Virus record (IMG/VR): IMGVR_UViG_3300032893_000004
Span: 1 to 64,000 of that record
Length of the DNA: 64,000 nt
Direction: 5' to 3' (one strand)
From: a virus
Shown: piece by piece, positions 2,315-32,808 of the stretch
How the letters are laid out: each line of letters begins with the position of its first letter
Numbering within the stretch: the first letter of the stretch is position 1
Notes under the pieces: model-generated
What the model saw: only the letters and a program-made list of their open reading frames with translations
Told to the model about the DNA's origin: nothing
The model's database searches: none
Made by a program: the position numbers and the translations under genes

Positions 2315-2568
2315 TCGATACGATCAACTCGGCATTCGAAGGATTCGCAGCGTTCGCTGTTGCAAACCACTGTCGCGTCATACTGAAGCACAAAGAAGTC
2401 AAGGGTACGAGTATCCTGTCGACCGCCTTCTTCACAGCGTGGGGCTTCTGGAACATGTACTACTATCCCGTTCTGGGACAGATGTTCAGCTTCTGGGCTG
2501 GATGCGCTGTATGCGCCGTCAACGCGACGTATGTCTATTTACTTTACAAGTACCGGCCTAAGCGGTAG
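2311..2568 (+). CDS. Conserved small phage membrane protein (85 aa)
   Basis: Three hydrophobic segments separated by HCRVILKHKEVKG and the motif FFTAWGFWNMYYYP. I recognise this layout (basic loop, AFFTxWGFWNxYYYP, third helix, short basic tail) as a widespread phage membrane protein of unknown function. ATG with AAGGAGGAG upstream. Likely in the host inner membrane; any role in altering transport or lysis timing would be speculation. Confidence 0.8.
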   Translation: MIDTINSAFEGFAAFAVANHCRVILKHKEVKGTSILSTAFFTAWGFWNMYYYPVLGQMFSFWAGCAVCAVNATYVYLLYKYRPKR

Positions 2569-2597
2569 ACTATCCTAACCCAAAGTTGGAGGAAACG

Positions 2598-2786
2598 ATG
2601 AAGACTTTGAGCCCGCACAATAACCTGAGAATGTTCCGCCGCAAGCGCGTGATCGAACGTCTGGAGAAGACTCTCAAATTCTCAGATAAAAAGCTAGCAG
2701 CCATGTCGACTTCTGGGGCGACTGGTTCGGACCAGCGTAAAAGAATCATCGCCGAATTGGAAACTCTCAAGAAGCGCGTTATATGA
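2598..2786 (+). CDS. Hypothetical basic phage protein (62 aa)
   Basis: The frame opens at a TTG (2586), but that codon lies within the ribosome binding site TTGGAGGAAACG; the ATG at 2598 is correctly spaced from GGAGG. The product is a lysine/arginine-rich helical protein ending in a leucine-rich heptad-like helix (RIIAELETLKKRVI). No family assigned. Confidence 0.7.
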   Translation: MKTLSPHNNLRMFRRKRVIERLEKTLKFSDKKLAAMSTSGATGSDQRKRIIAELETLKKRVI

Positions 2787-3028
2787 AGAAATCTCTGTTT
2801 AACGAAAAAGACGAAACGTTCACCGACGCGGCCACAGAGCTGGACTCCCGTGCCTCCGAAACTCTGACACCTCTGTTCAACGAATTCCTGATGCGCGGGT
2901 ACCCTGCTCGCGAGATCGAAAACGTCCTAGGCGAGCTGGTCATGGAGATCAGCTTGGAAGCGCGCCTGAACAAGCGCGACCCGCTCGAAGGAGAAGGGCC
3001 GGCAGGCTTCGGAAAGAAGGCGCCTTGA
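2783..3028 (+). CDS. Hypothetical phage protein (81 aa)
   Basis: Mostly helical, with an acidic first half and a proline/glycine-rich tail (DPLEGEGPAGFGKKAP). Starts in an ATGA overlap with the previous stop. No known domain. Confidence 0.65.
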   Translation: MKKSLFNEKDETFTDAATELDSRASETLTPLFNEFLMRGYPAREIENVLGELVMEISLEARLNKRDPLEGEGPAGFGKKAP

Positions 3029-3237
3029 CCGAGGTGATGGTGGTTTCGCCGTTCGAAGCGTTCATCTATTTGCCGATAGCAAATAAGTCGGTAAGGCTGA
3101 CCTGCGACACCGGAATGGTTCACGTACTCATAGAAGGATTCCTGAGCCCTCTCGGACCGGACATCGGCCCGCCCATCAATTTTAAATTGCTCGACATGGA
3201 TTACTCTGATACAGTGATTCTGACCGACGTGGCATAG
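3025..3237 (+). CDS. Hypothetical phage protein (70 aa), TTG start
   Basis: Starts at a TTG that overlaps the preceding stop (TTGA). The composition is beta-strand-rich and acidic towards the end. No family recognised. The next gene follows 8 nt after the stop with its own GGAGGT. Confidence 0.6.
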   Translation: MTEVMVVSPFEAFIYLPIANKSVRLTCDTGMVHVLIEGFLSPLGPDIGPPINFKLLDMDYSDTVILTDVA

Positions 3238-6788: not shown

Positions 6789-6796
6789 AGATTAGG
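6789..6796 (-). promoter_or_regulatory. CCTAATCT late-type promoter element
   Basis: On the minus strand this reads CCTAATCT, upstream of the arginine-rich gene (6726). The leader between it and that gene also holds GGGAGG and a five-codon frame (ATG to TGA), then AGGAGG before the real start. No -35 hexamer is conserved among the copies of this motif. Confidence 0.6.
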
Positions 6797-12300: not shown

Positions 12301-14145
12301 TGCCGACGCGTTCGCGGTCGACTGAGCCGACATCGTGAGAGTCGTACCTGATATGCCGATGACGTGAGCGAATCCGGCCGCGAAGTTCGAAGACGTGACG
12401 CGAGAACCCAGAAATACCTGCGACGTGCTGGACACCGCCGTGATCTGATCCGACGACATCGTGAAGTTACCGGTCAACGATACGGGCGCCAGGAACGAGT
12501 GGTTCGGGATCGTCAGAACGCCCGTGCTACCGATGCCGGCCGCGAACGACGTGATTGGCAGGTAAGGATTGTACGGCTGGCGAGTAGACGAGTCGAGCGA
12601 GCAGTTGTTCGTACCGGAAACGGTCGACGTCCCGGAACACGGCTGGACGGTAGCGAAAGTCAGCGATGTCGTGGACGGAGTGGAAGCTATCCTGAACACG
12701 CCGTTCGGCGGCGTACCAGAAGACAGAAGACCAGAGATGTTAACCCACTGACCTGGGTTCAGTCCGTGAGCGGTCGATGTGTTTACGGTAACGATCGACC
12801 ATACGGCCTGCGAGTTCGCGGTTCCGTCGTCGTTCGTAGTGAAGGACCAAGACGAGATGATGTTATTCGGAGTAGGATTGAGCGCCGACACTCTCTGCAG
12901 AGCTGCCCAGGTAGACGTATCGTCCACGAACGACTGAAGCATCCACTGGCTCGGGCTCGGGCGATACAGCCTTCGCTCAAACAGAGGCTCGTTGAATATG
13001 AACCCGTTATTGGACGTGATCGAGTTGATCAGGAGCGTTCCGCCGTTGAAGGCGGTTAGATCTGCGGCTACGCCGGAAGTTTGTCCCACGACGTACTCGT
13101 CGCCGGCCAAAGCAGTCGGATCTGTAGCGGATGACTGGAACGCACCGTACGTGACCGGCCCAGCCTGAAGAACGAGGTTGAACGAGATCTGACCGGCTCC
13201 GGTCATCACGGAACCGATCGAGTCGAGATACAGATCGTAGAGATTCAAGCCGACAGATGTGCCCGGAGTTGGTCCGTTGCCGGACGGTCCGCCTGTCCCG
13301 AAGTTGGAATCCATGTACCAGTAGACCGAGTTCGTGATCTCCTTGAAGCGCGTGTCCATCGCGTCGAGCTTATCTTTCAAAGTCTTGATGCTGAAGTCGC
13401 CGTAGAAGAACGCGTTCGGATCATCGCCGGGCTGAACCGTGAGAGGGTTGTATCCGGCGACGGTGGATATCCACTCGCGTCTGCCGGCAGCACCGGCTTG
13501 GGTATTCGTCAGGCCGCCCCACTGAAAAGAATTGTAGGGATTCGGATCTGCTCCGCCGGTGCCTAAGCGCCAGAAGTCGGTCGTGCACTTGGTTATGTAC
13601 TGGACAGCTCCGGTGTTGGTGGTAGACACGATCCACAGAGGCAGATACGTCGAGAAGCCGGAAGTCGAGATGTGATACTGATACTGAAGAATGTTCCCGA
13701 TCGGAACAGTCCTCTGGAACTCCAGCTGCTGAGAAGGCGACCAGCCGGCCGTCTGATCTGTCGTAGTCGGATCCGTGATGCGGGTGTAGTCCAGACCTAC
13801 GTAGTTGAGAGTGCCTGCCTGAAACGATCCGATCACGTTTGGATTGGACGGATTCAAGATGTCCGGCGGGGTAGTCGTCGGCACGCTGAGGATAGTACCG
13901 GACTGGGTGGCCGAGCTGTGAAGAAGAGTGGAGCCGGCTACGTTGACCTGAAGTTCCGAAGCGTTGATGGCTGCGTTAGGGATAACGATATCGAATCCGT
14001 TGATTAGATACGGCTGATTGACGCCGGTCATCATCCCGCGAAGTAACATATCGAAGTCGTAAGATACCGCAGATTCGATGGACCGCAAGTGCGGAAAATC
14101 TAATCTCATGCCGCTATAGCCTACTAAACGTCTATCAACGGCCAT
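9328..14145 (-). CDS. Large tail fibre/structural protein (1605 aa)
   Basis: Very long, low in cysteine, rich in Thr/Ser/Asn/Gly and beta-strand repeats, as in phage fibres and large tail proteins. It has at least one clear copy of a repeat domain (near residue 455, TSTAHGLNPGQWVNISG) and a diverged one near residue 760. This repeat is also seen in the 750- and 2184-residue proteins, and resembles the E1 FCCH-like beta domains common in phage tails. The C-terminus is hydrophobic-beta and glycine-rich. ATG with GGGAGATATTCC upstream. It follows a GIY-YIG endonuclease, whose CCTAATCT promoter probably also transcribes this gene. Exact role (fibre, tailspike scaffold or baseplate arm) cannot be decided from sequence; no lyase or chaperone domain is evident. 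Confidence 0.75.
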   Translation of the reverse strand: MAVDRRLVGYSGMRLDFPHLRSIESAVSYDFDMLLRGMMTGVNQPYLINGFDIVIPNAAINASELQVNVAGSTLLHSSATQSGTILSVPTTTPPDILNPSNPNVIGSFQAGTLNYVGLDYTRITDPTTTDQTAGWSPSQQLEFQRTVPIGNILQYQYHISTSGFSTYLPLWIVSTTNTGAVQYITKCTTDFWRLGTGGADPNPYNSFQWGGLTNTQAGAAGRREWISTVAGYNPLTVQPGDDPNAFFYGDFSIKTLKDKLDAMDTRFKEITNSVYWYMDSNFGTGGPSGNGPTPGTSVGLNLYDLYLDSIGSVMTGAGQISFNLVLQAGPVTYGAFQSSATDPTALAGDEYVVGQTSGVAADLTAFNGGTLLINSITSNNGFIFNEPLFERRLYRPSPSQWMLQSFVDDTSTWAALQRVSALNPTPNNIISSWSFTTNDDGTANSQAVWSIVTVNTSTAHGLNPGQWVNISGLLSSGTPPNGVFRIASTPSTTSLTFATVQPCSGTSTVSGTNNCSLDSSTRQPYNPYLPITSFAAGIGSTGVLTIPNHSFLAPVSLTGNFTMSSDQITAVSSTSQVFLGSRVTSSNFAAGFAHVIGISGTTLTMSAQSTANASAAVFDVQQEILVQGLQATGFTSQQLDGVHVVQAVSGNQVTISTPGAITSPAVAAGANADMFYYQFTLSITQALPAAYNVDNQQAFGIGNDQVQFVIGPSTLPSVPIASGAYQLDGVVALSTVLNPVRVSTITNDGAGNLTVTTFSPHNLITGGPQSFTIYGNSSLSQYIRSYINVGIVVTGADTFEITGTGIVSVESYTNVGGLDNTFIYFANNPYAGPVQWSSDIVVKSIIGDLSFTIPQTATVQTSDPNVDPAANQFNVNGQTGTAYVQDGEVLYVILERNEPVSGTTIFTTAGGSSIISTASIMTDAEGNALVPGDFIKFVGEADNYWLKIATINATTVTLVTDRGQAPTIIQRPAATGPMLYSKGSYPKVYVKLHDLVDTTADVYWLAVRRDNGGLPKVYFRDLELSPGEVRNVNDGVDNNLLIYTGANTEGAVNPNYSVSQVSGPYQFTQSLTIQAVDNLTQMVTFTTDAGNIMQQGDQISYYNGTTMYYFTIQNVITSRTVIMQQATNVLAASQTVTYYRENQFIEDTDNLTLALRKEDREAGQVNTALMTPVYDESVFVQQINLTGSGLVRSGSYMYQGSQYNPTALAWVLHGTAAVSETIEGVAIVMPGGNPNGPGPNGILAHIVFGAFSDGTGVFQNGAATGFTINNPGNPAFTAPSIYGDSVGGGIEMVLPPNRRTQVTGGGGFVVFGNHSYYKQDANASLSGEELLVIWNDGIREGNVDYTETFGGPKAKIQMIRWAPPNTRIRFRNLAAFGSAVVSKSSDVTLQSAYNAGNSIQIAPGTPVSITSDSVPLGSAALVVNGSIYINGGSSQLGGIYNITGQDQGFVIGSETNKPKSIWSGYHSVKTHTDHAGSAVQKFTTAQVVTGAAGAIITSSPTSPGSQITLNANTAYRIKIDATAYRSDGPLGVASFGLEGTFYLSSGVATAAGQPLSWVNGFDGDGANYAIVFAVSGNQVMAVVYGSVGATVQWVLAIETQAVSTP

Positions 14146-14626
14146 TGGAATATCTCCCGTGAATACGACGAGTCTTCCCGCTTTTCAGCTTAGATTCGTG
14201 ATTGTTTATCAGATGATAATTGGCTAATCCGACTTTTCTCAAAAGCTCTTTATGTTCAGGTCGAGCATGTAATCTTTTCGAGGCTTCCGATATCTTCCGT
14301 TTCGTCTCTTCGGAGTGTTTACCGTGAGAAAATCCGCCGTCCATCAAATTATATCCTTTGGAAGGATCAGTTGTTTCGAAGATGCGAACTGCATTTTTCT
14401 CCACCGCGTCTAATTCTTCGCGGGAATTGCAACGGTCTAGGATTATCTCTTCGAATTCTGACATACCATACTTTCGTAATGCATTGTAAAATGGGCGATT
14501 CAAGATCTTTTTGAAAGCATTCTGCTTGTGATCGCGCCGACGGTGCGACATCGGCTGCGTAGTCTGCCCGATGTACATCTTCATGTTTTGCCTGTTGACG
14601 TAGGCATAAACGATACCGTAATTCAT
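14135..14626 (-). CDS. GIY-YIG homing endonuclease with NUMOD3-like tail (163 aa)
   Basis: N-terminal GIY-YIG nuclease: GIVYAYVNRQ (residues 4-13) and MYIGQT (17-22) form the paired motif, followed by a basic SHRRRDHK helix and the acidic FEEIIL strand. The C-terminal HSEETKRKISEASKRL is a NUMOD3-type DNA-binding motif, as in Seg-like free-standing homing endonucleases. It would cut related phage genomes lacking the gene and so spread itself. The coding sequence is clearly more A/T-rich than the flanking tail genes, which fits recent insertion between the late promoter and the large fibre gene. It overlaps that gene's start by 11 nt. Confidence 0.9.
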   Translation of the reverse strand: MNYGIVYAYVNRQNMKMYIGQTTQPMSHRRRDHKQNAFKKILNRPFYNALRKYGMSEFEEIILDRCNSREELDAVEKNAVRIFETTDPSKGYNLMDGGFSHGKHSEETKRKISEASKRLHARPEHKELLRKVGLANYHLINNHESKLKSGKTRRIHGRYSNGR

Positions 14627-14645: not shown

Positions 14646-14653
14646 AGATTAGG
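14646..14653 (-). promoter_or_regulatory. CCTAATCT late-type promoter element
   Basis: Minus-strand CCTAATCT 19 nt before the ATG of the GIY-YIG gene. Transcription from it would read through into the 1605-residue fibre gene, and it probably served that gene before the endonuclease inserted. Confidence 0.65.
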
Positions 14654-15858: not shown

Positions 15859-16000
15859 GTTTTCCTCCTCTTATTAGTATCATACCATGATTCATGCGAC
15901 GCCTGAGATCGCTTACTCTGCAGCGTTCCCCGGAAGAGTGAATCAGCTTGACCGGTCTCATCCCCATCGCTCGCATGAAGAGATCTACCAGCCACTTCAC
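15785..16000 (-). CDS. Hypothetical basic protein (71 aa)
   Basis: Starts in an ATGA overlap with the stop of the 750-residue tail gene. Short amphipathic N-terminus (KWLVDLFMRAMGMRP), then arginine-rich. The last 24 codons overlap the next gene, which has its own strong ribosome binding site; an overlap this long is unusual here, so the C-terminal part may carry little selection. Confidence 0.5.
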   Translation of the reverse strand: MKWLVDLFMRAMGMRPVKLIHSSGERCRVSDLRRRMNHGMILIRGGKHEKVQRDEADAGASRNSAKTDRRT

Positions 16001-18249
16001 GACGGATCCGGCCCGTAGATGTAGACCACGTCGGACTGCGGCGACGCGTTCGGAAGCGTGGAATCTCCGGCGTTACCCCAACCTTCGTCGTTCGGGTAGA
16101 TTATGATGATCTCGACGTTGACTCCGGCTGCGATGATCGACTCGATGATCTGCTGAGCATAGATCCTGCCGTTCGCGGTGCCGGTCACGAAGAAGCTGTA
16201 GTCCGATCCGTCGAGCGCTGGGGTGTAAGCCTGCGTAGCCGATATCAGAGTCACATCCTCGCCGATCTCGTGGTCGAACTGAAACCGATAAGCCGTATCC
16301 ATGATGAGCGTCGTGATCGTGCCGGCTACGATCGGCGTCGACAGGCCGGTCGTCTCGAACGCTATCTGCGATGTCGTATTGTTGAAGGTGTACACGTTCA
16401 GCGATGGTGTAGAAGTTACGGTCCACGAGCCGTTGAAGTGCAGCGTCCCGGTGATGAATACTTCCTGTCCTACTACAAGACCGTGCGGTCCGTCCGTCGT
16501 GACTGTCGCGGTGTTTCCGTTCTGGGAGATGGTCTCGATGATGACCGCTTCAGCCGAAGTCGAAGACTGAGCGGCTAGGTACGTCACCGGCGATTCCTGG
16601 TTGTCGCCGTTGAGCGAGAACAGCAGCTGTCCTTCCGCGTTCGGGAGCTGGCCCTGCACCTGGAGGGTCGACAGATTCTGGCCTGCTACGATCGCCTGTC
16701 GAAGCGTGACGTACTGAGACGTGAGAGTGTAGTTCGCGGTCGGATCCACCATGTACGCGCCCAGAAACGGGTTAACCGGGTCGTCTTCCAGCAAGATTCC
16801 TACCACCACGCCGACAACTTGAGTACTGAATACCTGACCAAATTGGTTAGGTACTCCGGTGATGCCGTGAGGAGTGGTCGTCTGAACGGTCGTAAACCCT
16901 TGTTCCCTGAAGATATCCTGGATCGTGAACGTGTTCGACCCGACAGTCAGCGTACCGCCCGAGCCGGACACGTCGTACCCGTCCTGAGCGTACCTGATCG
17001 TGAGAGGGTTCACCACTTGGATCTGAGCCGACGGGACAGTAACCGAGCCGAACGATCCGTTCAGCTCCTGCGACGTGTAGAGAAGGTGAGTGTGAGCTGA
17101 CCCGATCAGGCTGCGCTCTACTACCTGAGTAGACGCGGGCATGTATATCTTCAGCACGCCGTCGGCCGGCTCGAAGGCCAGAGCGTATCTCACCTGAGAA
17201 TACGCTGTGTTCTTGTACGGTAGGAAGAACTTCAGATCGGAGTACAACGCCTGCGTCAGCGTGATAGAGTAGTATGTCGGCGGCGAATTGGCTGGAGGAG
17301 TTGTGTTCGGCGGTATCGAAGCTAGCTGGATCGGACCTGCGAACTCAGGCACTTGTATCTCGAAGTATCCAGCCGAGGGGTTCGGAGTCGGCTGGCACGG
17401 CGAGGCTGCTGTGACGGTGAACGTCCCGTAGAAGCCGGCGTCCTGGAACTGCTCGCCGTAGATCATGACTGAGTCGCCGGGCAACACGAACGACAGAAGC
17501 GGCTGCGGACCGCCGTTCCACGAGAACCGGTACGTGTCGCCGAGATTTCGCGTGATCTGCCATACCGTCGTGTTCGAAGGCAGCATGGTCGGGCGTATGG
17601 TCGGGAACTCAAGCTCGTTCTGGATCGTCCCGCCGACTATCTCGACCAGCGAGTACGGCCCGCGAGCGCCACCGAAGATCTGAACGTACTCGTCGCCGGT
17701 GTCGAAGTCGGTGTACACCTGCGCGTACCCGTCGGATCCGAGAGATGCTATGTAGCGAGAGATCACGTCGACGATCTCTTCGGCGGTCGCCGCCGACGGA
17801 TCCAGAAACTCGTCTCCTACCAGTGTCAAGATATTGGTCACACCATTTTCCAGCACGAATCGGAGGTCGTCGCCTGCCTTGAACGAGTACGGCGCAGCTA
17901 CGCCGGAGATGGTGGTAGCTCGGGTTGCCTGGTCGCCGTAGAAGGCTGCAAGCACGGCGTGGATCGCATCCGTGATCAGCTTCTCTTGGACGATCGTGAT
18001 ACCCATCTCGCTGAACGCGAAGTCGGCCATGCCTAAGTCGCCAGGTCTGACGACGCCCTTCGCGGCGAGCAGCTGGTCTAGGTAGACGCCGGAGCTGGTC
18101 GAGATCGTCAGCTGGTCGGTGACGGCTACGGACAGCTGATCCTGCGCTTCGAGCTGGTCAGAGATGGATTCGAAGAATGCCTGCGCGTTCGGCCCGTCTA
18201 CGAAATCAGAGATAAATTGTCGGAATTGTTGATATCTTGAGAGAGCCAC
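15997..18249 (-). CDS. Large tail/baseplate structural protein (750 aa)
   Basis: The N-terminal 60 residues are helical and contain a SDQLEAQDQLSVAVTDQLT segment. The rest is Thr/Ser/Gly-rich beta structure with two HG(L/I)-type repeats, near residue 463 (TTTPHGITG) and near 590 (TTDGPHGLVVGQEVFITG), of the same type as in the 1605- and 2184-residue proteins. This shared module suggests all three belong to the same tail-tip assembly. Start ATG in GTGAACAGTGGCTCTC; no strong ribosome binding site, but the long structured leader upstream (18250-18400) could control access. Role beyond virion structure not determinable. Confidence 0.7.
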   Translation of the reverse strand: MALSRYQQFRQFISDFVDGPNAQAFFESISDQLEAQDQLSVAVTDQLTISTSSGVYLDQLLAAKGVVRPGDLGMADFAFSEMGITIVQEKLITDAIHAVLAAFYGDQATRATTISGVAAPYSFKAGDDLRFVLENGVTNILTLVGDEFLDPSAATAEEIVDVISRYIASLGSDGYAQVYTDFDTGDEYVQIFGGARGPYSLVEIVGGTIQNELEFPTIRPTMLPSNTTVWQITRNLGDTYRFSWNGGPQPLLSFVLPGDSVMIYGEQFQDAGFYGTFTVTAASPCQPTPNPSAGYFEIQVPEFAGPIQLASIPPNTTPPANSPPTYYSITLTQALYSDLKFFLPYKNTAYSQVRYALAFEPADGVLKIYMPASTQVVERSLIGSAHTHLLYTSQELNGSFGSVTVPSAQIQVVNPLTIRYAQDGYDVSGSGGTLTVGSNTFTIQDIFREQGFTTVQTTTPHGITGVPNQFGQVFSTQVVGVVVGILLEDDPVNPFLGAYMVDPTANYTLTSQYVTLRQAIVAGQNLSTLQVQGQLPNAEGQLLFSLNGDNQESPVTYLAAQSSTSAEAVIIETISQNGNTATVTTDGPHGLVVGQEVFITGTLHFNGSWTVTSTPSLNVYTFNNTTSQIAFETTGLSTPIVAGTITTLIMDTAYRFQFDHEIGEDVTLISATQAYTPALDGSDYSFFVTGTANGRIYAQQIIESIIAAGVNVEIIIIYPNDEGWGNAGDSTLPNASPQSDVVYIYGPDPS

Positions 18250-18400
18250 TGTTCACCTATTAGAGGCGAGACCGGCTGGACTACCCAACACCTCCGCTAA
18301 CCCGGTTTCTTGGCGGGCTCTGCCGCGCCTGGATCGATCGGCACCGGACGGGCGGTAGCCTCTCCAGAACGGGCTATTGAGCTACGGTCTCTTTAATTGA
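18250..18400 (-). ncRNA. Structured 5' leader RNA of the 750-residue tail gene (candidate)
   Basis: A transcript starting just after the CCTAATCT element at 18401 would carry about 140 nt before the tail gene ATG. Its ends pair perfectly as GAGACCG (18391-18385 on the minus strand) with CGGTCTC (18274-18268), closing a domain that also holds CCGC/GCGG and GTTGG/CCAGC helices. Such a folded leader could regulate translation or be processed into a separate RNA. I cannot match it to a named riboswitch or ribozyme. Confidence 0.4.
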
Positions 18401-18408
18401 AGATTAGG
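18401..18408 (-). promoter_or_regulatory. CCTAATCT late-type promoter element
   Basis: Minus-strand CCTAATCT placed between two structured RNA domains. It would start a transcript whose first bases form the closing stem of the leader RNA ahead of the 750-residue tail gene. Confidence 0.6.
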
Positions 18409-18410
18409 GT

Positions 18411-18476
18411 CCGACTCCGACCGTGTGAACCCGCTGTGTACAGCGTTTTTAAGATTCAAGCCCCAGTCGGAGTCGG
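18411..18476 (-). ncRNA. Long perfect stem-loop downstream of the tmRNA (candidate)
   Basis: CCGACTCCGAC (18411-18421) and GTCGGAGTCGG (18466-18476) form an 11-bp perfect stem around a 44-nt loop with a nested CGCTG/CAGCG hairpin. On the plus strand the inner hairpin is followed by five Ts, a terminator-like layout for antisense transcription. It lies between the tmRNA and the next late promoter, so it may cap or stabilise the 3' end of the tmRNA transcript. Confidence 0.4.
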
Positions 18477-18490
18477 CGTAAAAGATAAAA

Positions 18491-18605
18491 ATAGTTGAGG
18501 ACCCATACAAAACTCGGTCGACGTACCGTTTACGAAAAAAGGGACTCGCCGGACATGGCACTACCCAATCGTCTACCTGGGCTATAAGAGCGTCACCTCA
18601 ACTAT
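18491..18605 (-). ncRNA. 115-nt RNA domain closed by a 10-bp stem, next to the tmRNA (candidate)
   Basis: ATAGTTGAGG (18491-18500) and CCTCAACTAT (18596-18605) pair perfectly over 10 bp. Inside, on the minus strand, are a GCCCA/TGGGT helix with a GGTAGACGAT loop and a CGGT/ACCG hairpin. It begins 14 nt after the tmRNA CCA end and should be on the same primary transcript. The D-arm-like GCCCAGGTAGA resembles tRNA, but there is no T-arm, so I do not call a tRNA. It may be part of a larger ornate phage RNA. Confidence 0.45.
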
Positions 18606-18618
18606 CCAAAACCAAAAA

Positions 18619-19048
18619 TGGTGGAACTGGCGGGAATCGAACCCGCGTCCATAAGAAGCTCCGATGCCAGTCTACACGCGTAGCCCTGCATATTTATCGT
18701 CTCCGGGCTAAGACTAGGGCGACCGGCTAAGGTCACCTCCACCACCCCGTATTTTTCAACGACTACGGGAAAGAGCCGGACTGCCGTTTTTCGTTCCCAG
18801 TTCGGCGACTGGGTTCCGCCTGATTTATCGTGGTGCGGCTGCGCTTCCACTATCGCATCTGGGTTACAGTCTGCTGCGAGAGACCGCCGATTCTGCCTTC
18901 TGGACTTCCTCGGTCCTTACCGCCGTTTTTAGGCAGCGGCTTGGAATTCGTATTCGTTGTCGAATACTGTTTGGGCTTTTTACGTGGCCAGCCCACCACG
19001 GCGTGCGTAACATCTTCGCTGATCCCATGTCGAAGCCAGATCAGTCCC
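18619..19048 (-). ncRNA. ssrA: Transfer-messenger RNA (tmRNA), phage-encoded, 430 nt
   Basis: The 5' end GGGACTG and the 3' CAGTTCC pair as the tRNA-like acceptor stem, followed by an encoded ACCA. The 3' domain has GGACGCGGGTTCGATTCCC, the tmRNA T-arm signature, and the conserved GGCTACGCGTGTAGA precedes it. After the 5' segment GGCCACGTAAAAAGCC comes the tag frame: GAC AAC GAA TAC GAA TTC CAA GCC GCT GCC TAA (18961-18929), encoding DNEYEFQAAA after the tmRNA-borne alanine. The exact resume codon is inferred by alignment with the E. coli layout and could be off by one codon. tmRNA with SmpB rescues stalled ribosomes and tags the product for proteolysis. The open frames across this region are shadows. 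Transcribed from the CCTAATCT element 7 nt upstream, so expression is probably late. Confidence 0.95.
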
Positions 19049-19055
19049 ATCTAAG

Positions 19056-19085
19056 AGATTAGGCTAGAATGTGAAAGTTGTCAAC
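19056..19085 (-). promoter_or_regulatory. tmRNA promoter: CCTAATCT element with TTGACA -35
   Basis: Minus-strand CCTAATCT (19063-19056) ends 7 nt before the mature tmRNA 5' G, the distance expected for a -10 box. Here alone a perfect TTGACA lies 17 bp upstream of TAATCT, overlapping the end of the neighbouring gene, so host sigma70 might also use this promoter. This site calibrates the other copies of the motif. Confidence 0.75.
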
Positions 19086-28298: not shown

Positions 28299-28757
28299 AT
28301 GACCGCCAAGATCCACTCCTGCAAGAAGAACGGCGAGAAGATAGATCTAGGCGTGAAAGAGGATAAGTACATCCTAGTCAAAGTCACGGCTGGCGACCAC
28401 CTCGAATGGATCGAGAAACCGGGCAAGTATGAAATCAAGAGAAGCACTCTGATGCCGAAGAGCGGCATCTTCGACCTTAAGTCAAATACGTTTCTGGACG
28501 AAGATGCCGTCTTCGATCAGTTCCAGTCCGTAGATCGGTGCGATTTCCCCAAAATTACTGCTCCCAGAGAACGCATCCAATACGTCGAAGGTATTCGCGA
28601 CAGCCACAACGCTTTCCATGAAGGAATCGTTACGGTGCCGCAAGATGGCTGGTATCTGTACCAGCACAAAGGGCAACCTATCCGACGTGCATGGTTCCGA
28701 GCTGGCAGCACGCTGTGGGATCTGGTTCTTCTGATCGACACGACGGAGCCGCTATGA
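28299..28757 (+). CDS. Hypothetical phage protein (152 aa)
   Basis: A GTG two codons upstream is possible, but GAGGTG then spaces correctly to the ATG at 28299. Lysine-rich beta start (IHSCKKNGEKIDLG), middle with KYEIKRSTLMPKSGIF, end beta-rich with WYLYQHKGQPIRRAWF. No domain recognised. Confidence 0.6.
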   Translation: MTAKIHSCKKNGEKIDLGVKEDKYILVKVTAGDHLEWIEKPGKYEIKRSTLMPKSGIFDLKSNTFLDEDAVFDQFQSVDRCDFPKITAPRERIQYVEGIRDSHNAFHEGIVTVPQDGWYLYQHKGQPIRRAWFRAGSTLWDLVLLIDTTEPL

Positions 28758-32360: not shown

Positions 32361-32704
32361 ACTGGTTCAAATCCCTACTGCAACTGATCGCGTTCCAGAC
32401 CGACCGCTGCACGGCTTGCTGGCGTCCGCTTAGGACCAAAGCTATCCACCAAGATTACCTCGACGGCCATACGCTGCTCGAATCGACACACGTCTGCATC
32501 TACTGCGGGTCGGTGGAAGACCAGTTCGCTTACGGCAATTATGCGCGAGAGTACTGGCAGTACGAAGACGAGAAGGCTCATCCGATCTACATGCGGCTGA
32601 TCAGGTTACCAGATAAAGTTTACATGGCTACGCGGAGGCTCCTCAACCCGTCCGAGCCAGCAGTCCCGGTCAAGCCGGGTGACCGAGACGAGACGTCCCA
32701 CTAA
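32357..32704 (+). CDS. Zinc-ribbon-like protein (115 aa), GTG start
   Basis: CTACWRPL (residues 18-25) and CIYCGS (about 47-52) form a CxxC...CxxC ribbon separated by a basic/hydrophobic loop. The C-terminus is proline-rich. Last gene of the second plus-strand operon; transcription meets the opposing late gene just downstream. Confidence 0.6.
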   Translation: MNWFKSLLQLIAFQTDRCTACWRPLRTKAIHQDYLDGHTLLESTHVCIYCGSVEDQFAYGNYAREYWQYEDEKAHPIYMRLIRLPDKVYMATRRLLNPSEPAVPVKPGDRDETSH

Positions 32705-32743
32705 AAACAAGAGGCCGGGTGCCTTACAGCTCCCAGCCTCTTG
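32703..32743 (-). terminator. Intrinsic terminator of the single minus-strand gene
   Basis: On the minus strand CAAGAGGC (32743-32736) pairs with GCCTCTTG (32715-32708), with GGG/CCC extending the stem, and TTTTT follows (32707-32703). This is a textbook Rho-independent terminator for the gene at 32809, placed right at the stop of the opposing plus-strand gene. The same hairpin, without a T-run, may also slow plus-strand transcription. Confidence 0.8.
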
Positions 32744-32808
32744 CCCATCCGTCGCGCCGGCTGATCAGCGTCCGGCACTTTCAGATGTAATCGATTTCTA
32801 TTTGCCTA

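Follow-up and report, generated by a model that had tools for sequence, protein, structure and literature searches.

Among phage RNAs, GOLLD and ROOL are large and often lie close to tRNA genes, and many GOLLD members are longer than 800 nt (PMC12286853). Structured leaders are known from phage T4 as well, where those at the translation starts of genes e, soc, 49, and I-TevI hide the ribosome sites, while the late transcript of gene e does not include the 5′ strand and avoids the structure (PMC3014915). In bacterial mRNAs, 5′-terminal stem-loops have a stabilising effect, at least as the work of Emory, Bouvet and Belasco (1992) is cited in PMC3997798.

The locus described here lies within the first 64 kb (hereafter, the window, to which positions refer) of a 155-kb phage record, IMGVR_UViG_3300032893_000004 (G000). 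The terminase of this phage has relatives of 91 to 37% identity in IMG/VR, and that of Myxococcus phage Mx1 is 34% identical. The window encodes baseplate wedge and baseplate proteins as well as one tmRNA; neither ARAGORN nor Rfam found tRNA genes anywhere in the 155-kb record. A 664-aa ORF located further along the record (G000 129254–131248, corresponding to L006 5254–7248) resembles GroEL-type chaperonins and shows 68–90% identity in relatives. With a probability of about 0.5, the 369 nt between the tmRNA and a tail gene represent a junction of two late transcription units that is structured and untranslated, and not one ornate RNA.

Stems of the gene-free region

The region occupies positions 18250–18618. 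According to the initial annotation, it contains no gene but three strongly closed structures with stems of 7, 11, and 10 bp next to a tmRNA, two of them following the tmRNA on its transcript and one forming the leader of a tail gene with its own late promoter. All three stems are exactly present on the minus strand at the positions reported, and the tmRNA was confirmed by both ARAGORN and Rfam. The features of the locus are as follows:

19049–19084, minus strand: tmRNA promoter, −35 sequence TTGACA (19084–19079), 17-nt spacer, late motif GCCTAATCTC with TAATCT (19061–19056)
18619–19048, minus strand: tmRNA gene, tag DNEYEFQAAA, CCA encoded (ARAGORN; Rfam RF00023, 128.5 bits, E 6.8e-50)
18491–18605, minus strand: RNA1, 10-bp perfect closing stem (ATAGTTGAGG, 18605–18596; CCTCAACTAT, 18500–18491), interior of 95 nt, separated from the tmRNA CCA by 13 nt
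18480–18490, minus strand: T-tract TTTTATCTTTT, 9 T of 11, directly 3′ of the RNA1 stem
18411–18476, minus strand: RNA2 hairpin, 11 perfect closing pairs (CCGACTCCGAC, 18476–18466; GTCGGAGTCGG, 18421–18411), 13 with extension, inner stems of 6 and 5 bp
18394–18429, minus strand: tail-gene late promoter, −35-like TTCACA (18429–18424, inside RNA2), 17-nt spacer, CCTAATCTT with TAATCT (18406–18401)
18268–18391, minus strand: RNA3, 7-bp stem (GAGACCG, 18391–18385; CGGTCTC, 18274–18268) enclosing one long arm plus one small hairpin, 5′ portion of the predicted leader of the tail mRNA
18253–18269, minus strand: SD hairpin UCGCCU-CUAAU-AGGUGA, pairing the tail-gene Shine-Dalgarno sequence (18258–18254), two bases common with the RNA3 stem
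15997–18249, minus strand: tail gene, ORF of 750 aa with a GTG start, orthologues (~51%) in relatives G004, G006, and G007

The longest internal ORF of the region (59 codons, 18382–18561) scores −0.20 bits/codon, compared with 0.28 ± 0.16 for true and −0.25 ± 0.16 for wrong frames, and a coding reading was thus rejected. The description of the stems as strongly closed holds for RNA1 and RNA2, whose closing-stem probabilities are 0.84–0.99 and 0.99–1.0, respectively, across all of the transcript contexts tried. RNA3 does not fit this description within its mRNA, as the stem probability of 0.99 drops, to 0.00 at the lowest, once the folded sequence extends into the beginning of the tail gene, and the stem is then often displaced by other pairings.

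Stems of 7 bp are commonplace (563 in the window, arms within 150 nt), and the 10 stems of 10 bp found in the window are close to the chance expectation. Two stems of at least 10 bp within 369 nt, on the other hand, were obtained in just 2 of 3000 dinucleotide shuffles, and the window has no second region of this kind. The fold energy z values of RNA1, RNA2, and RNA3 are −1.3, −7.0, and −2.5, values reached by 12%, 0%, and 3% of the same-strand windows, respectively, and that of the whole region is −1.7 to −1.9. RNA2 is the only individually exceptional element of the three: none of 300 shuffles reached its energy, and each of the 1065 same-strand windows of equal length that were sampled has a higher z. 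RNA3 is moderate (6 of 300 shuffles), and the fold energy of RNA1 is ordinary. In addition, RNA1 and RNA3 have the 9-nt sequence TTGGGTAGT in common, for which the estimated expectation is ~0.05. Elsewhere on the same strand, strong folds were observed at 28463–28509 and 32676–32800 (z of about −4.2 and −5.8, 124-nt windows), the latter of which contains a terminator-like hairpin with a T-run on the minus strand.

These values bear on the reading that the region is a spacer with no selected RNA function beyond its promoters and a chance hairpin, the stems having been seen because stems were searched for. The ordinary z values of RNA1 and of the whole region (about −1.8), the frequency of 7-bp stems, the context dependence of the RNA3 stem, and the lack of conservation among the relatives compared are all in line with such a spacer. 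It is nevertheless unlikely in view of the two stems of at least 10 bp, the position of RNA2 below all sampled windows, and the T-tract exactly 3′ of RNA1. Moreover, long idle spacers are rarely kept by phages.

Late promoters and the tmRNA unit

The motif CCTAATCT[T/C] is found ahead of many minus-strand structural genes. Its 10-mer GCCTAATCTT occurs eight times in the record, always on the minus strand (reversed control, 0), and is one-sided in the relatives too, with forward:reverse counts of 4:0, 0:5, 1:6, 0:3, and 7:1. Alignment of 34 sites from G000 and its relatives G001 and G002 yielded GAGCCTAATCTT followed by a preferred start A (A/G) at offset 15, counted from the first C of CCTAATCTT, and 36 sites from more distant relatives have the identical core and the identical preferred A. 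Within the window, GAGCCTAATCTT sites are found on the minus strand at 6796, 14653, 18408, 19063, 47185, 57178, and 61989; others are present in the rest of G000 and in relatives G001, G002, and G004–G007, with no conserved −35. The site at 14653 belongs to an ORF (14135–14626, minus strand) which lies between tail genes and, judged by eye, is similar to GIY-YIG homing endonucleases. A literature search for the core of the motif gave no match. Such a clade-wide motif allows transcript starts to be predicted to the base.

At offset 15, the start predicted for the tmRNA promoter is 19048, which is G1 of the tmRNA; the tmRNA would be transcribed from its own late promoter, beginning on the mature 5′ end. 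The tail promoter has a predicted start at 18393, 2 nt before RNA3. The separate late promoter proposed earlier ahead of RNA3 is supported by CCTAATCTT, a motif conserved in the relatives. Only these two promoters, with TTGACA and TTCACA, respectively, add a sigma70-like −35 at a distance of 17 nt, while one of the other 13 late sites in the genome reaches 5/6 of a −35, at 15 nt. These −35 sequences beside the late motif suggest that the two promoters are hybrid early/late promoters, and the tmRNA and tail units may also be readable by unmodified host polymerase.

RNA1 is most likely a terminator or a 3′ processing hairpin of the tmRNA unit, because it is positioned 13 nt past the CCA and its stem runs into a T-tract. 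The immediate T-tract (CCTCAACTAT followed by TTTTATCTTTT) and the site just past the CCA are features that RNA1 has in common with intrinsic terminators and with the 3′ trailer hairpins of RNA genes. In contrast to the compact, GC-rich, short-loop hairpin of an intrinsic terminator, RNA1 has a long interior and an AT-rich stem base, and a simple terminator scan listed no minus-strand site, RNA1 included.

RNA2 would form a very stable hairpin on read-through transcripts between the tmRNA and tail units, and its function is most likely that of a boundary or processing stem, either of the RNase III type or as a block to 3′ exonucleases. As DNA, however, RNA2 covers the −35 and the spacer of the tail promoter, which makes an operator a serious rival: the inverted repeat would be the site of a regulator at the promoter, and the RNA fold would be incidental. 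The 3′ arm of RNA2 lies within the spacer between TTCACA and TAATCT, and each arm consists of a direct repeat, CCGAC-T-CCGAC. Still, the two arms are separated by 44 nt that contain additional complementary stems, an arrangement that resembles an RNA hairpin more than a compact operator, and such a repeat is absent from the other late promoters of the phage. An operator therefore appears rather improbable.

The leader of the tail gene

From the predicted start at 18393, the leader of the tail mRNA is ~144 nt in length, compared with mostly 12–35 nt for other late genes in a table where the next start with a Shine-Dalgarno sequence was picked mechanically and some distances are unreliable. It is likely that the second late promoter provides the tail mRNA with an unusually long, structured leader. 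The Shine-Dalgarno sequence is predicted to be largely paired, its unpaired probability being mostly below 0.2 (three transcript contexts), with exceptions of 0.24–0.40 in two short ones. Since two bases are common to both structures, the RNA3 stem and the SD hairpin compete, and folding models make a switch between them possible. According to the same models, the SD hairpin forms with or without the 5′ half of RNA3. Because it competes with the hairpin that hides the Shine-Dalgarno sequence, RNA3, as folded from a single sequence, most likely tunes the translation or stability of the tail mRNA.

A 16-mer of RNA3, GTTGGGTAGTCCAGCC, was also found in two unrelated phage contigs (L167, 1606–1621; L168, 3781–3796), where it is part of a longer intergenic hairpin ahead of a start codon and has the identical GUAGU loop; the match is possibly due to chance.

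The sequence of RNA3, GAGACCG-TA-GCTCA ... GTTGG-GTAGT-CCAGC-CGGTCTC, has some likeness to a decayed tRNA gene, with an acceptor-like 7-bp stem, a TA-GCTC-A similar to tRNA positions 8–14, and, stacking on the 3′ strand, a 5-bp hairpin that appears T-arm-like in the minimum-energy fold of RNA3 alone. Such an origin is highly improbable, since ARAGORN and Rfam (to E 10) gave no tRNA match, the 5-nt loop is without TTCRA, there is no CCA, and the D-stem GCTC/GAGC has a probability of 0.002 in the transcript.

The junction reading is thus favoured by the strand bias and start position of the late motif, the robustness of the RNA1 and RNA2 stems, the z of RNA2 (−7), the T-tract, the lack of a coding signal, the outlying leader length, and a Shine-Dalgarno sequence predicted to be paired in competition with the RNA3 stem. 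Counted against it are the interior of RNA1 and its miss in the terminator scan, the independence of the SD hairpin from the 5′ half of RNA3, and the presence of the elements in no relative.

Relatives and described systems

In G004, G006, and G007, the tail orthologues are preceded by the late motif (variant CCTTAATCTT in G006) and a short leader, and these loci have no tmRNA, no long spacer, and none of RNA1–RNA3. The Mx1 tmRNA sits in a tRNA cluster elsewhere in the Mx1 genome. Based on these locations, the tmRNA together with RNA1–RNA3 appears to be a local gain in the lineage of this phage, or else to have been lost in other lineages. The closest relative (IMGVR_UViG_3300042090_000890; TerL, 91–92%) is a partial contig that does not cover the region.

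DNA searches revealed no credible match to the region in phages and plasmids (both to E 10) or in 24 related records. Protein-guided searches for close relatives at the locus, with the single tail protein, with the upstream small proteins, and in bacterial genomes, found none, and an alignment of four tail proteins led to eight loci, all without the tmRNA or the RNA region. A pattern search for the promoter plus tmRNA in IMG/VR gave nothing, while exact 16-mers from each RNA matched 37 loci there, all with unrelated flanks. Two related phages have non-coding stretches close to tmRNA or tRNA genes that are structured and carry no annotation, in L044 (~340–540 and 2142–2425) and in L091 (Mx1; ~2490–3030). 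These have no Rfam match (L044 2142–2425 and L091 were also tested at E 5), and are similar neither to each other nor to the region in the window.

The same searches bear on the proposal of an undescribed family of trans-acting small RNAs, represented by RNA1, RNA2, and perhaps RNA3, which would be transcribed from the tmRNA promoter, cut from the 3′ trailer of the tmRNA, and directed at host or phage targets. The robust stems and the exceptional RNA2 adjoin a stable RNA gene, and related phages harbor structured, Rfam-negative stretches near tmRNA; against this, no homologue was found in any collection searched, the close tail-gene loci included, the fold energy of RNA1 is ordinary, and the search found no promoter of its own for either RNA1 or RNA2. 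The proposal is therefore quite improbable, and it is equally doubtful that RNA1, RNA2, or both are discrete, stable small RNAs of such a family, encoded in the trailer, that would aid the phage tmRNA in the takeover of host translation. The roles of the elements are most likely ordinary ones, and the probability of a new small-RNA locus is low. If RNA1 and RNA2 were made separately, the phage would have a small-RNA locus coupled to its tmRNA, a setting with few known functions; as punctuation they would matter less, and would illustrate in detail how a stable RNA gene and a late structural operon are kept apart in a phage.

The initial annotation named GOLLD as an example of the large ornate RNAs beside phage tRNA and tmRNA genes and gave no match for these structures; a link to GOLLD, ROOL, or another described RNA is not supported. 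At gathering score, Rfam identified only the tmRNA in the whole record, and to E 10 the region itself gave nothing further except for a spurious permuted-tmRNA match (E 4.2); neither the GOLLD nor the ROOL covariance model was matched at either threshold. As structured non-coding phage sequence beside a tRNA-type gene, the region has a setting in common with GOLLD and ROOL (PMC12286853). In contrast to GOLLD, however, it is much shorter than many members and consists of three distinct elements with a promoter in between, and membership in GOLLD or ROOL is not supported.

With the structured leaders of T4, the tail leader shares a late promoter just upstream and a structure predicted over the Shine-Dalgarno sequence, with no homology between them. 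Unlike that of T4 gene e, the late transcript starting at 18393 would carry all of RNA3 and the SD hairpin, and its Shine-Dalgarno sequence would stay paired. With regard to the 5′-terminal stabilising stem-loops, the RNA3 stem would begin 2 nt from the predicted 5′ end of the mRNA; its probability is 0.00–0.99 depending on context, and it is not stably predicted when the coding start is present. The individual elements of the region are without described relatives, and the region as a whole belongs to a known kind, the structured, untranslated sequences found in late regions of phages.
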